A stretch of DNA of 64,000 nt from an uncultured Flavobacteriales bacterium. GTDB lineage: Bacteria > Bacteroidota > Bacteroidia > Flavobacteriales > Crocinitomicaceae. The notes under the pieces are model-generated. The model ran no database searches, was not told the DNA's origin, and worked only from the letters and a program-made list of their open reading frames with translations. Below, in pieces: positions 36,729 to 63,630 of the stretch; position 1 is the stretch's first letter; each line of letters opens with the position of its first letter. The stretch covers positions 1 through 64,000 of the forward strand of contig CAMLRS010000007.1 in the NCBI GenBank assembly GCA_946482515.1, in the 5' to 3' direction. The position numbers and the translations under genes are program-made.

Positions 36729-37130
36729 TTCTTTACGAAGATCATTATAACATCCAGACGAAGTTTGGATGTTCTCCGCGTACTTAAAAAACGCTAAGCA
36801 CGTCAAAGAATAACCTTTGCGCCCTTTGCGTTTCCTATTGTACGTTTCGCCTGGAAAGTCTCTTCGATTCAAAAAATTGAGCGCCAACGCTTTGGTTGGA
36901 AACGGTTCGTTAAAAGACGTTAAAACCGATTTCACCTTGTACCAAAAGAATAAAACTGCCGTTAAATTTAGCAAGTAGTAGTAGTTAGGTTTAGGTAGCG
37001 TGTGGAGAGAGGCAGTAGTGTCTCTCTCTTTCTTTTTATACTACAGAGGAAACCAACACTTCTCTTTCAGGGGACTTAAAAACATTCAATGTAGCTTAGC
37101 GTCCTTTGTGCGTAACTCTGCGGTGACAGA
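36729..37130. other. 402-nt intergenic region
   Basis: After the XRE gene there is an AACATCCA/TGGATGTT hairpin (about 36749-36771) without a T-tract. Two stretches resemble each other: CTTTGCGCCCTTTGCGTTTC near 36810 and CTTAGCGTCCTTTGTGCG near 37092. A candidate small RNA lies at 36974-37040. No protein gene is seen. Confidence 0.7.
36974..37037 (+). ncRNA. Candidate small RNA 1, (AGU)n leader with terminator hairpin
   Basis: The predicted transcript begins with AGTAGTAGTAGTTAGGTTTA and ends in a hairpin (GAGAGAGGC, 37005-37013, with GTCTCTCTC, 37020-37028) followed by TTTCTTTTT. TAAATTTA (36963-36970) is a -7 box and TTG (36937-36939) a -33 box with a 23-nt spacer. The leader begins 4 nt after the -7 box, exactly as in the twin at 59792. 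No gene follows on this strand; the next gene is convergent. The shared 5' segment and shared hairpin core argue for an RNA family rather than a gene leader. Function unknown. Confidence 0.55.
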
Positions 37131-38636
37131 TTATTTATTCAGCGCGCCATTCACATCCAGCAGGTAAAAATCCACGTTGTTGACTTCCTTCCAGACAAGC
37201 TTCGCTTTTTTCGGGCTGAGCAGATCCACTACATAACTGTTGTGCAGGTGTTCGAAAAATCGGCTGTCGACCTGCTCGAAAGGCAATTTGCGGGAAGAAA
37301 GCTGGGCCGGTACTTTGGTTCCCGGCAGCACAAACAGGTATTCATCCGGGTTGAGGTGAATGGTCGCCATTGCTTTTTTCTCTACGTAACCCGAATAAAC
37401 GGCCGCACCACTGCGGTTTTCAAATACCAGGATGAAGGCCGTTTGTTCCGTATCGTTCATAAACGATGCTTCGATGCTGCCTTTTCTTGATCGAATCGCT
37501 TGTGTCGTAGGGAACGAACGTTCGTCTTTCTTGCTTTCCGATGATTGTGGCAGCGTTCCGGTCGAATCCTGGCTTTCCCATGTCACGAACAAGGCTGCGG
37601 CGAGCTTGTTTTTCCACGGCTCTTTCATTTCAAGCGTTATGCCAACGTAGGGAAGCGGCTCGGCATCCATCTGGTTCACCGGTTGTTGCTGCTGGTTCAC
37701 GGTTACGCGATTCAGGAGCGAATCCAGCGTTTTGCGTTCCTCGACCGTAAATGACATATACGCCGTTTTGTTCTCCATTTCCGGTTCGATTTCCGGCTCA
37801 GTCGGAACCGCCCATACAAACCAGATCAGCGCGAAGATGGCACAGGCAGCAACTGTGAGCAATACGATGCGCTTCCAGGGAATGTAGGTCGCTTCGACTT
37901 CCACGGCGCCCGATTTAATATCACGATCAAGCGTTTTCAATTCCTTCACGTGATCCGGATTGAGCTCGAGTCGGTTCAGCTGACCGGAGATATGCAAAAT
38001 CAATCGTTTGGAGCTGAAGCGGTGGGAACTTACGCCCAGCAGTGTTTCCATCCAATTGGTCTTGGCGCGATAGAAGGATTTCGTAAAACCGTTCAGCATT
38101 TCAAGAAAAGCCGGTCGCAAATACGGCTGCACGGCCTTTACCAGTGCTTCTTCCGAATCGGCACGGGCGATATTCCGTTCCAGCAATTCACGCTCTTCCT
38201 TCAGCTGTTCGTAAACGATGCCCTGGATGAGGTCGCTTTGCTGTTCCTGCAATAAGGAGACATAGGTCAGACCGTTGGTCCAGGTATCTATGGAAGAATT
38301 ACGCAGCAGCTTTTCCAGTTGCGGATATAAAAAAGGCGTGATAAATGCCTGGTATTTTGCAAACAAAGCATGGTCCTTCAGTCGGCTTTTATTCTGGAAC
38401 GGGTGGTTCAGTCTGCCGTCGAGCACTTCCAGCAACGCCGTTTCCTGTTCCGTCCATTCCATGAACAGCACAAACGAATCGGTTGAAAGATGCGCCACCC
38501 ATTGTTCGGTTTCGTAAACTCCGGCGAAATTGGCGGCATACAGCGCATCACGAAAACGAGGCGCTTCTTCGGCATTCAGCGGAAACCGGAATCCCGGGAA
38601 TTGCTGCTTTAGGGCGGAAAGTCGGACGTATTGCAT
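37131..38636 (-). CDS. Single-pass membrane protein of unknown function
   Basis: This 501-aa protein has a soluble, probably helical N-terminal part (~1-268), one transmembrane helix (~272-292, IVLLTVAACAIFALIWFVWAV) and a C-terminal part (~295-501) that starts with an acidic PTEPEIEPEMEN linker and contains beta-like segments (TAFILVFENRSGAAVYSGYV). The long N-terminus without a signal peptide suggests the first part is cytoplasmic. No family is recognised. Start ATG 38636 (MQYVRLSALKQQF) is the first ATG that does not run through the REP-like stretch upstream. Confidence 0.8.
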   Translation of the reverse strand: MQYVRLSALKQQFPGFRFPLNAEEAPRFRDALYAANFAGVYETEQWVAHLSTDSFVLFMEWTEQETALLEVLDGRLNHPFQNKSRLKDHALFAKYQAFITPFLYPQLEKLLRNSSIDTWTNGLTYVSLLQEQQSDLIQGIVYEQLKEERELLERNIARADSEEALVKAVQPYLRPAFLEMLNGFTKSFYRAKTNWMETLLGVSSHRFSSKRLILHISGQLNRLELNPDHVKELKTLDRDIKSGAVEVEATYIPWKRIVLLTVAACAIFALIWFVWAVPTEPEIEPEMENKTAYMSFTVEERKTLDSLLNRVTVNQQQQPVNQMDAEPLPYVGITLEMKEPWKNKLAAALFVTWESQDSTGTLPQSSESKKDERSFPTTQAIRSRKGSIEASFMNDTEQTAFILVFENRSGAAVYSGYVEKKAMATIHLNPDEYLFVLPGTKVPAQLSSRKLPFEQVDSRFFEHLHNSYVVDLLSPKKAKLVWKEVNNVDFYLLDVNGALNK

Positions 38637-38685
38637 AGCAGGTGAAGTTACATAATATCTGAAAACAAATAGTAGTATCATCCCC

Positions 38686-58536: not shown

Positions 58537-59487
58537 TCAGAATATTTGACTCGCAATGGTTTTCACCGAAGCGGAAGTCGACATGGTATAATAGTGAATG
58601 CACGGCACGCCGGCAGCTTTCAGTTCTCTCGACTGCTGAATTCCCCATTCGATACCAACCTGGGTCGCATCGGCATTGGTTTTGCATTTCAGCAGCTCTT
58701 TGCTGAGCTCTTCCGGGAAATCGATGTGGAAGAATTTCGGTAAGAACGAAATATGGTTCAACGTTTTGATCGGTTTAAGTCCCGGGATGATGGGTACATT
58801 GATTCCCGCGGATTTGCATAGTTCAACGAAGTTGAAGTACTTTTTATTGTCGAAGAACATCTGCGTCACGATGTATTCTGCTCCGGCGTCCACCTTTGCT
58901 TTGAGGTACTGGAGATCGGTCGACAGGTTCATGGCCTCGAAATGCTTTTCCGGGTAGCCGGCGGCTCCCATACAGAAATTCGTTGGGTCCATATGGATGT
59001 CATCTATGACATAATGTCCTTTATTCATGCCAGCGATCTGCTCGATGAGCTCCACGGCGTAGCGGTGACCTTCCGGATGCGGTTTGAAGCCGGATTCGGT
59101 TTTGATGGGATCGCCTCGCAGTACGAGCACGTTATCGATTCCAAGGAACTGAAGGTCGATCAGGGCGTTTTCGGTTTCCTCGCGGGAGAAACCGCCACAG
59201 ATGAGGTGGGGAACAGCATCGACCTGGTATTTGTTCATGATCGCCGCACAAATCCCAACAGTTCCGGGGCGTTTACGGATGGCGATCTTCTCGAGCAAAC
59301 CGTTTTCGCGTTCTTTGTAGATGTATTCTTCGCGGTGATACGTTACATTGATAAACTTCGGTCCGAACTCCATCAACGGGTCAATTCCGTCGTAAATAGA
59401 CTGGATATTAGCGCCTTTAAGCGGCGGGAGAATTTCAAATGAAAACAGCGTGTCTTTCGCTTCTTTTAAGTGATCTATAACTTTCAT
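58537..59487 (-). CDS. metF: Methylenetetrahydrofolate reductase
   Basis: This 316-aa FAD-dependent enzyme reduces 5,10-methylene-THF to 5-methyl-THF for methionine synthesis. It shows FSFEILPPLKG at the N-terminus (catalytic Glu region), the VLVLRGDPIK motif, and the YIVTQMFFDNKKYFNF segment with the conserved Gln, all typical of MetF. Start ATG 59487 (MKVIDHLKEAKDTLFSFE) is preferred; an in-frame upstream extension has no family match. A terminator-like hairpin in the leader (59563-59592) suggests regulation by attenuation. Confidence 0.96.
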   Translation of the reverse strand: MKVIDHLKEAKDTLFSFEILPPLKGANIQSIYDGIDPLMEFGPKFINVTYHREEYIYKERENGLLEKIAIRKRPGTVGICAAIMNKYQVDAVPHLICGGFSREETENALIDLQFLGIDNVLVLRGDPIKTESGFKPHPEGHRYAVELIEQIAGMNKGHYVIDDIHMDPTNFCMGAAGYPEKHFEAMNLSTDLQYLKAKVDAGAEYIVTQMFFDNKKYFNFVELCKSAGINVPIIPGLKPIKTLNHISFLPKFFHIDFPEELSKELLKCKTNADATQVGIEWGIQQSRELKAAGVPCIHYYTMSTSASVKTIASQIF

Positions 59488-59562
59488 GTCTGATCGTGTT
59501 CGAAAAAAGGGTGGTCGCAAAGATAATGAAAGGCCTGAGTGTAGGAACAAGTGATTCCACCT

Positions 59563-59592
59563 AAAAAATCCCGGCCGTATGGCTACCCGGGT
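59563..59592 (-). promoter_or_regulatory. Terminator-like hairpin in the metF leader (possible attenuator)
   Basis: On the minus strand CCCG-ggta-GCC-atac-GGC-CGGG is followed by ATTTTTT, 75 nt before the metF start. A GGAA-tcacttg-TTCC hairpin follows. I recognise no known S-adenosylmethionine or cobalamin riboswitch core. It could instead terminate an upstream minus-strand RNA. Confidence 0.5.
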
Positions 59593-59758
59593 AAGCACCT
59601 TTCTTGTCTGATTTTTTTAGTTGGTCAATTCCCAGTAGCTACGGGCAATTTGTAATTATTTGTTAAAAATCAAAAACGATAAAATACATCCCGAAAACCT
59701 GCGTTAAATTTGATACCAATAATAACTGAAATCAGTTCTTCATACTTTGGTACGAAAG

Positions 59759-59788
59759 TTGATGACAGTTATTCAGAGGTTAGTTTTC
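59759..59788 (+). promoter_or_regulatory. Promoter of candidate small RNA 2
   Basis: TTG (59759-59761) and TAGTTTTC (59781-59788, one mismatch to TAnnTTTG) are 19 nt apart. The conserved RNA start lies 4 nt after the -7 box, as for the twin at 36974. Confidence 0.5.
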
Positions 59789-59791
59789 ATA

Positions 59792-59850
59792 AGTAGTAGT
59801 AGTTTAGGTTGGAACAAGAGAGAGGCACCCGCTTCTCTCTTGTTGTTTTA
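59792..59850 (+). ncRNA. Candidate small RNA 2, twin of the RNA at 36974
   Basis: The predicted RNA starts AGTAGTAGTAGTTTAGGTT and ends in a 14-bp hairpin (AACAAGAGAGAGGC, 59813-59826, with GCTTCTCTCTTGTT, 59831-59844) followed by GTTTTA. Both the leader and the GAGAGAGGC stem core match the twin at 36974, while the outer part of the stem differs but still pairs. Neighbouring genes are all on the minus strand, so it is not a leader. About 60 nt long. Function unknown. Confidence 0.55.
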
Positions 59851-59951
59851 TACCGGTTCTTACTTCCCCTCGGAAACCGTCACAAATCCTAGTTGTTTTT
59901 TCATATTCCCGCGGATTGACGAATTGTCGCGAAGGATTATTTTATAGACAC

Positions 59952-59999: not shown

Positions 60000-60524
60000 C
60001 TATTTCTGTTGATCTTCTGTCTGATCTTCGTCTTTGGCGGCTTTCAGCTCGGCATCTTCCTGTTCTTCGAGATCGTCCTGCTTGTGTTGTTCTTCTTCCT
60101 CAGCAAACGGATCGTCTTCGTCGATCACATGAATTTTTTTCAATGCCTTGCGCGTCATCCCACCGATGAACTGGTTGATGCTCTTTTCGTTTTTTCGATA
60201 GAAATACGTTACAACTTGTTGTACAATAAGCGATTTGATATAGCCCTTCGGTGAATTGTTTTTCCCCATGAGCCTTCCAACGAGGTAGTTGAGCCCAAGG
60301 CTGCCGACCAAACCGCCGGCTTTTTCCCCTACTTCCACGTCTTCGCGGATGTTGTCGATGGCCGATTTGACCAGCTCTGCCGGTTGCAGGGACTTGTAGA
60401 TCTCGATGAGATCGGCTTTCAGCACGTCTTCCTGTTCTTCCTTCACGCGCTCGAGATGGGCGATGCGGGCTTTCATCTCATTGTGCGACGCGAAATTGTT
60501 CTTTTTTACGATTTTCTCCAGCAT
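60000..60524 (-). CDS. Small coiled-coil/acidic-tail protein of unknown function
   Basis: This 174-aa protein has an N-terminal coiled coil (~18-45, ARIAHLERVKEEQEDVLKADLIEIYKSLQ split), a middle with a Gly-rich hydrophobic patch (GGLVGSLGLNYLVGRLMGKN, ~68-92) and a strongly acidic tail (~135-174, DPFAEEEEQHKQDD...). Its start lies 6 nt from the holin-like gene stop, so both are co-transcribed. It probably associates with the membrane with its partner, but no family is recognised. Confidence 0.78.
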   Translation of the reverse strand: MLEKIVKKNNFASHNEMKARIAHLERVKEEQEDVLKADLIEIYKSLQPAELVKSAIDNIREDVEVGEKAGGLVGSLGLNYLVGRLMGKNNSPKGYIKSLIVQQVVTYFYRKNEKSINQFIGGMTRKALKKIHVIDEDDPFAEEEEQHKQDDLEEQEDAELKAAKDEDQTEDQQK

Positions 60525-62669: not shown

Positions 62670-63630
62670 TGTTCTTTTTCTTCTTAACTGTTACGTGTTC
62701 TTTCTCCTGCACGGTCATTTTTCCTGTTTCGACTACGACTTGCTGTATGGTCACTGCGTAGGCGTTGGGGTGAATCTGCGCACCGTATCTCACGGCATAG
62801 GCTTTGGTGTATTCGGCGCCGAGGTACAGGATCACGGAAGAATAGTAGACCCAGACCAGCAATACGACCAGCGAGCCGGCGGCGCCGTATGTGCTGCCCA
62901 CTTTGGTTTGTGTGATGTACAGTGAAATCCCGAATTTCCCGAGCATGAACAGAATGGCTGTTACCAGCGCACCGGCAAACACATCGCGCCAGCGGATGCG
63001 GGCATCGGGCAATACCCTGAAAATCGTAGCGAAAATAAGCGTACTGATGCCCAGCGAAAGCGCCAGGTTCACGATGTATAAAACAGGAACCGCCAGACCC
63101 GGAAAGTGTTCGCTCAGACTGTTGCTGAGTCCTTCGATGAGCGAGGTGATGATGAGGGAAACCAGCAGCAGGAATCCGAGGCTTACGATCACCGAAAACG
63201 ACAGAAAGCGGTTCTTGAGATACTTCAGCCAGCCGCGCTTCGGTTTGGGCATAATGCCCCAGATCGTATTGATCGAATCCTGGATTTCCGCAAACATACT
63301 GGTAGCACCGATAAGCAGGATTCCACCACCGATCAGGATGGCAAAGCCGCTTTCACCACTGATGGAGGCATTCCGGATGACTTCTTCGAGCTGAACGGCT
63401 GAATCTTTTCCGATAAATTCGCGCAACACACCGTAAACTTCTCCTTCGATGGCTTCGCGACCGAGAAACAGGCTGCAGAGCGAGATGATAACGATCAGCA
63501 GCGGCCCCATGGAAAACACGGTATAATAGGCCAATGCGGCGCTCAGCTTCATCACTTTATGTTCGGAAAAGCCGTGAAAAGTGTCCTTCAGCAGCTGCCA
63601 GATTTCCCGAAAGCGGAATACTCTTTTCAT
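62656..63630 (-). CDS. YihY/BrkB-family membrane protein
   Basis: This 324-aa inner-membrane protein belongs to the YihY/virulence factor BrkB family. It has an N-terminal SALAYYTVFSMGPLLIVIISLCSL segment, an IWGIMPKPKRGWLKYLKNRFLSF motif, and a GAAGSLVVLLVWVYYSSVILYLGAEYTKAYA motif, all characteristic. Six transmembrane helices are likely. The C-terminus is a basic KKKKNNGTD tail. Function is not established; the often-quoted RNase BN name is wrong. Its 3' end overlaps the cupin gene start by 14 nt. Confidence 0.92.
   Translation of the reverse strand: MKRVFRFREIWQLLKDTFHGFSEHKVMKLSAALAYYTVFSMGPLLIVIISLCSLFLGREAIEGEVYGVLREFIGKDSAVQLEEVIRNASISGESGFAILIGGGILLIGATSMFAEIQDSINTIWGIMPKPKRGWLKYLKNRFLSFSVIVSLGFLLLVSLIITSLIEGLSNSLSEHFPGLAVPVLYIVNLALSLGISTLIFATIFRVLPDARIRWRDVFAGALVTAILFMLGKFGISLYITQTKVGSTYGAAGSLVVLLVWVYYSSVILYLGAEYTKAYAVRYGAQIHPNAYAVTIQQVVVETGKMTVQEKEHVTVKKKKNNGTD

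Follow-up and report, generated by a model that had tools for sequence, protein, structure and literature searches.

The window, a 64,000-nucleotide stretch of contig CAMLRS010000007.1 (GenBank assembly GCA_946482515.1) from an uncultured member of the Crocinitomicaceae, contains two short intergenic segments that are members of one RNA family. Their leaders are present at 36974 and 59792, where the original prediction had placed them, and AGTAGTAGTAGTT with at most one mismatch occurs exactly twice in the 64 kb (0.01 expected; 0 of 100 shuffles reached two). A GAGAGAGGC hairpin followed by a T-tract closes both segments, in agreement with the claim of a shared terminator core, and the segments fold with z = -3.0 and -3.8. 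The absence of a same-strand gene downstream was likewise borne out, as the first gene beyond each copy (37131-38681 and 60000-60524) is on the minus strand. The former encodes a 516-aa protein, convergent with copy B and with no Pfam match, for which 18 homologues are listed at E ≤ 0.001 from 7,994 candidates scored, one of them named Candidatus Fluviicola riflensis. The two copies represent two subtypes: type A (59792) carries GTTAGTTTTCATA, and type B (36974) lacks it. The features of both loci are as follows.

36909-36966 (+): upstream region of copy B, with GTTAAAAGACGTTAA, GTACCAAAAG (36939-36948) and CGTTAAA (36960-36966), identified by eye
36973-37004 (+): constant leader of type B, AAGTAGTAGTAGTTAGGTTTAGGTAGCGTGTG, lacking the anti-AUG part (12 aligned B copies)
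37004-37037 (+): intrinsic terminator of copy B from its fold, stem 37004-37014 with 37019-37029, then a T-tract
58537-59598 (-): metF (methylenetetrahydrofolate reductase; Pfam MTHFR, E = 2e-65), next to copy A in divergent orientation, with an uncertain start codon
59747-59763 (+): sigma54-like promoter element of copy A by motif, TTGGTACG-AAAG-TTGAT (-24/-12), with a probable transcription start near 59774
59774-59851 (+): predicted type-A small RNA, from a covariance model match, with putative start and end
59779-59810 (+): constant 5′ leader block of type A, GTTAGTTTTCATAAGTAGTAGTAGTTTAGGTT (28 aligned copies)
59785-59797 (+): proposed seed TTTCATAAGTAGT, antisense of ACTACTTATGAAA, from start-like antisense sites
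59813-59849 (+): intrinsic terminator of copy A from fold and covariation, stem 59813-59826 with 59831-59844, then a T-tract

Across 28 aligned type-A copies, TTAGTTTTCATA and AGTAGTAGTTTAGGTT are invariant while the hairpin varies, and the preceding G is present in at least 90%. The constant part of type A, GTTAGTTTTCATA(AGT)nTTTAGGTT, is longer than first described by the extra 5′ block GTTAGTTTTCATA, and the 5′ end of the RNA is predicted from sequence to lie upstream of GUUAGUUUUCAU. In the type-A hairpin alignment, 92.6% of cells are paired and 10 of 11 pairs have changed on both sides, giving a covariation score of 0.660 against 0.354 in shuffles (0 of 500 reach it) and at most 0.396 when the partner is slid. 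The selection on stem structure proposed for both copies therefore holds for type A, which strongly covaries across relatives, whereas in the type-B alignment only 2 of 13 predicted pairs have changes on both sides.

Type B has AGTAGTAGTAGTTAGGTT in common with type A, followed by its own constant stretch ending in TTAGGTAGCGTGT (12 copies), and a third subtype (C), found in other genomes, reads GTTAGGTTTCATAAGTAGTAGTGTTA. Most type-B copies are preceded by the motifs GTTAAAAGACGTTAA, GTACCAAAA and CGTTA. These could represent an ECF-type promoter or a regulator site, and the GTACCAAAA and CGTTA boxes resemble the CGT-box ECF class of Flavobacterium psychrophilum as described in the available sections of PMC9723704.

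Distribution and promoters of the family

A covariance model (R1) was built from the 28 type-A copies, the window copy included. It matches that copy, a member of its training set, at 59773-59850 (90.2 bits, E = 1.5e-17) and, although trained on type A only, also finds the window B copy at 36955-37037 (36.0 bits, E = 6.6e-6), which indicates that the two types are related. The original prediction had looked to such a search for further copies with a constant leader and covarying stems, and these were found: R1 matches 100 of 150 genomes drawn from the Crocinitomicaceae (E ≤ 1e-4). At its cut-offs, an Rfam scan of the window and five loci returned only tRNA, so that neither element matches a named family, as had been stated, and searches of mostly open-access literature gave no previous account of sRNA families in the Crocinitomicaceae. 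The window segments are thus members of an undescribed family of predicted small regulatory RNAs, often with several copies per genome. The proposal of an undescribed Bacteroidota family stands as to the family itself; its members are concentrated in one bacterial family (Crocinitomicaceae: Fluviicola, Taishania), and a phylum-wide spread was not shown.

Several searches bear on this distribution. A pattern scan of the genome collection recovered 27 stretches, two of which (L004 and L008) were without conserved surroundings, judged to be chance matches and excluded from the copy sets; R1 scores L008 at 19.9 bits (E = 0.08). The other 25 are labelled Fluviicola, Taishania, Crocinitomicaceae or unnamed Flavobacteriia, Flavobacteriales or Bacteroidetes, with one exception. 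This record (CP034120.1), titled Glaciecola amylolytica THG-3.7 and thus a gammaproteobacterium by name, holds a full Fluviicola-type metF / sRNA A / sRNA B locus and is probably mislabelled or mixed up. A looser pattern combined with a terminator was found in 35 of 200 genomes drawn from the Crocinitomicaceae, and a draw of 399 genomes from the order included 106 with the exact core TTTCATAAGTAGTAG. Sorted by eye, 104 of the core-positive genomes fell among 186 already sampled, almost all through the family draw, and two (G229 and G276) among 213 new ones. Across the class, R1 matched 49 of 395 genomes at E ≤ 0.01, with Crocinitomicaceae members counted. Twelve class-wide R1 loci were viewed, 7 of them from genomes outside the family draws, and 3 of these 7 (L349, L350 and L351) have a TTTTCAT leader with other flanks and then a terminator-like hairpin; they are possible further branches of anti-start sRNAs, with the caveat that R1 is biased towards leaders of this kind and gives approximate E-values.

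The window has two copies, up to seven R1 matches occur in one genome (G071), and relatives carry tandem arrays of four copies in a row, mostly spaced by 150-900 bp (for example G187, G122, G033 and G137). A strict sigma54 motif, TTGGYRC-N5-TTG, lies upstream of 18 of 63 non-redundant copies, the window copy included (100 shuffled sets: mean 0.02, maximum 1), and an RpoN domain was detected in 10 of the 10 relatives searched. The -7-like box TTAGTTTTC, from which the original prediction would have transcribed the 59792 copy, is most likely inside the type-A RNA, because it falls within the block that is invariant in 28 copies and downstream of the sigma54-like -24/-12 element; it was therefore ruled out as the type-A promoter.

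The standard box TAnnTTTG is found within 87 nt upstream of 17 of the 63 copies (shuffled mean 5.4, maximum 11) and is near enough to act, at an offset of -15 to -28, in only 8 of the 17, while for many copies neither this box nor the sigma54 motif was recognised. Some arrays are mixed: L022 and L009 each have one copy with TAnnTTTG, next to a neighbour with the strict sigma54 motif in L022 and with TTGGCACG-ATAT-TTGAG in L009. In three further arrays (L018, L020 and L026), inverted repeats (GCGTATT...AATACGC and TTGATGC...GCATCAA in L018 and L026) lie upstream of the first sRNA copy, where other copies have the sigma54 element, suggesting a regulator site or another promoter type.

Matches to start codons of exported proteins

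The core UUUCAUAAGUAGU is exactly antisense to ACUACUU-AUG-AAA. The GU-rich stretch alone had been put forward as the seed; the likely seed is instead UUUCAUAAGUAGU, which joins an anti-start codon to AGU repeats. Outside sRNA genes, the antisense 13-mer was examined at 40 sites in 98 genomes, of which 29 are start-like (the ATG opens an ORF of 100 codons or more, and a stop lies no further than 60 codons upstream) and 27 carry an export signal as called by a fixed hydrophobicity rule. These sites come from two sets. The 32 sRNA-bearing genomes contain 77 occurrences of the 13-mer, 56 of which were attributed to sRNA copies from their positions and from inspected loci; among the 21 examined, 16 are start-like, and 16 of 16 have an export signal. 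In 66 further core-holding genomes, VACTACTTATGAAA occurs at 22 sites, and after removal of three that look like sRNA copies (L284, L286 and L287), the 19 kept include 13 start-like sites, 11 with a signal. The 66 are not all proven to bear the sRNA, as G037 and G048 are without an R1 match and eight lie outside the R1 draw; G037 (2 of the 19 sites) and G048 (1 of 19) were kept in the counts. The core match in G037 (L114, 1515, minus strand), perfectly complementary to the sRNA core over 15 nt, looks more like the start of an exported-protein gene than like an sRNA copy.

Three controls were compared with these counts. Permuted heptamers before ATGAAA, in 2.4 Mb from two relatives, gave 15 of 75 start-like sites and 12 of 75 with a signal (Fisher p = 6e-8 each). 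The control CATCATTATGAAA (heptamer CATCATT) in the same 32 genomes gave 20 sites, of which 7 are start-like and 2 have a signal (p = 0.012 for starts and 2e-5 for signals); all of these Fisher p-values are optimistic, since related genomes are not independent. Among 66 Flavobacteriales genomes lacking the core, 5 sites were found and none was start-like, and the lower site count there is partly a matter of composition, because reversed-pattern controls are also fewer (19 vs 47). Relative to the export-signal baseline for start-like ATGAAA in the 2.4 Mb (355 of 611, or 58%), the 27 of 29 at 13-mer starts are an excess (p = 3e-5).

A Pfam search covered 27 of the 29 start-like proteins (10 through a 102-residue N-terminus only) and gave no hit for 12 of the 27. 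Domains among the other candidates include CBM96, FG-GAP with Por_Secre_tail, SprB repeats, YadA head, HYR, Ig_7, Sortilin and DUF7948 (twice), a set that fits exported surface proteins. A GMC oxidoreductase without an export signal (L297) does not fit this description, one candidate N-terminus (L266) has a sub-cut-off CarboxypepD_reg match, and the others form a varied set of exported proteins. Conservation of the site between orthologs was seen for a single target pair (L274 and L276).

Several results speak against the target prediction. In duplex energies against 1,624 start regions of one relative (G005), the leader was not stronger than shuffled leaders, and across 229 ortholog pairs strong duplexes were shared no more often than with shuffles in which the anti-AUG part was preserved. 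Exact complements of at least 10 nt were found at 27 of the 1,624 starts, compared with 6.6 ± 4.3 for whole-leader shuffles and 17.6 ± 5.4 when the anti-AUG part was kept, so that some of the start-match signal reflects no more than complementarity to a common start. The best match among start-like ATGs of the window is 9 nt, at 1239 (+) and at 63630 (-). Strong targets are therefore likely limited in number per genome, and a broad regulon was not shown.

Relation to known sRNAs and proposed mode of action

Vibrio Qrr RNAs are a precedent for several sibling sRNAs driven by sigma54. The present family resembles them in a sigma54-dependent promoter, assigned here by motif only (18 of 63 copies; 59747-59763 in the window), and differs in having no Rfam match at the cut-off and in belonging to another phylum. 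Other analogues are found within the Bacteroidota. According to the available sections of PMC11697453, FopS RNAs, present in 14 copies in B. thetaiotaomicron, combine a free 5′ seed with a terminator and repress susC-like mRNAs near the start codon, and they are bound by the RRM protein RbpB, which opposes this effect. GibS of Bacteroides pairs likewise at start codons, as far as PMC7366714 describes it in the sections available. In an open Rfam scan of the window A copy, FopS (RF04319) was the only sRNA family that Rfam labels as coming from Bacteroidetes, with a full-model alignment of 17.5 bits (E = 1.5), far below the 56-bit gathering cut-off. Six relatives yielded no match over the cut-off, such scores are genome-wide noise, and leader similarity to FopS was within dinucleotide shuffles (p = 0.14, 0.70 and 0.21 for types A, B and C); identity with FopS by sequence was accordingly ruled out.

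The likeness is one of layout. As in FopS and GibS, a free 5′ seed precedes an intrinsic terminator, copies are multiple, and pairing is predicted around the target start codon. Unlike FopS, the present RNAs have sigma54 promoters, tandem arrays and different flanks and specificity, and the predicted targets are exported proteins in general, with one N-terminus (L266) as a candidate for the susC-like targets of FopS. The Crocinitomicaceae sRNAs thus appear to be a family of their own with a FopS/GibS way of working. The Rfp sRNAs of F. psychrophilum belong to the same order and are likened here by description alone: in the available sections of PMC9723704, that species is described as having promoters of the sigma54, TAnnTTTG and ECF types, and its Rfp18 as having an effect on secreted proteases; Rfp18 is predicted to pair via its third stem-loop, unlike the free 5′ end proposed here.

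The genomic neighbourhood of type A differs among relatives. Of 26 sources, 11 have a divergent metF protein cluster next to the A copy and 8, in one clade, have lepA downstream in the same orientation, with other genes elsewhere; neighbours that vary by clade next to an unchanged leader fit action in trans. As these neighbours change between clades, type A was ruled out as the leader of metF or lepA. A wider cis role, in which the RNAs would be attenuators or leaders of whichever genes adjoin them, could appeal to the lepA clade and to the leader-plus-terminator layout that attenuators also show, yet in the window and in the metF clade the next downstream gene differs or is on the other strand, the leader is constant although neighbours vary, and copies occur in tandem; we consider it highly unlikely. 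Compensatory stem changes, T-tract endings, promoter-like elements at limited distances and the neighbours shared by relatives make it extremely improbable that the segments are mobile repeats or DNA-binding sites instead of RNA genes, even though tandem copies and short repeats occur.

Two further explanations accept the RNAs as real. The start match might be a by-product, with AUGAAA common and ACTACTT favoured upstream of exported-protein starts for some other reason, which would agree with the lack of excess in the energy tests, with the 355 of 611 start-like ATGAAA that already have an export signal, and with the scarcity of reversed-pattern controls in core-less genomes. Against this rather unlikely account, the effect is absent for permuted heptamers and for the same-genome control heptamer, and export signals at 27 of 29 sites exceed the 58% baseline. 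Alternatively, the RNAs may act mainly through a protein, the UAG/UUAGG units of the leader binding or titrating an RRM-type RNA-binding protein. Such units are abundant in the leaders, RRM_1 proteins occur in 10 of 10 relatives, the RRM protein RbpB is described as binding FopS (PMC11697453, available sections), and type B retains the repeats without the anti-AUG part; this explanation leaves the invariant UUUCAU and the start-codon enrichment unaccounted for and is in our judgement unlikely, while an RRM-protein partner of the RNAs is possible.

We therefore favour, as the probable explanation, that the segments are genes for trans-acting sRNAs whose seed pairs at the start codons of exported-protein mRNAs and blocks translation. 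Each RNA would begin with a constant 5′ leader, mostly free of structure, and end in an intrinsic terminator, and type A would be transcribed from a sigma54 promoter. In relatives, same-seed siblings in tandem would be transcribed from different promoter types (sigma54, the TAnnTTTG box or unclassified). Pairing of UUUCAUAAGUAGU with ACUACUU-AUG-AAA would cover the start codon of mRNAs that encode exported proteins, often located at the surface, and the resulting duplex would block translation initiation; the host group does not rely on Shine-Dalgarno pairing. Type B, which is without the anti-AUG part, must by this reasoning have other targets.

More speculatively, FopS and the present family could be two branches of a Bacteroidota-wide class of "anti-start" sRNAs, each with a free 5′ AUGAAA complement, lineage-specific flanks that set specificity, and a terminator. 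Same-seed siblings would here be wired to different sigma factors, such that sigma54, housekeeping and other signals each throttle exported surface proteins. If the favoured explanation holds, these RNAs would add another example of pairing at start codons where initiation is not reliant on Shine-Dalgarno sequences, and would link sigma54 to the control of exported proteins in these environmental bacteria. The rule is testable, in that the seed would be UUUCAU plus a flank and targets would carry the complement over the AUG, and a list of candidate target genes is already in hand, including three with a ACUACUUAUGAAA start region (L067, L072 and L274).
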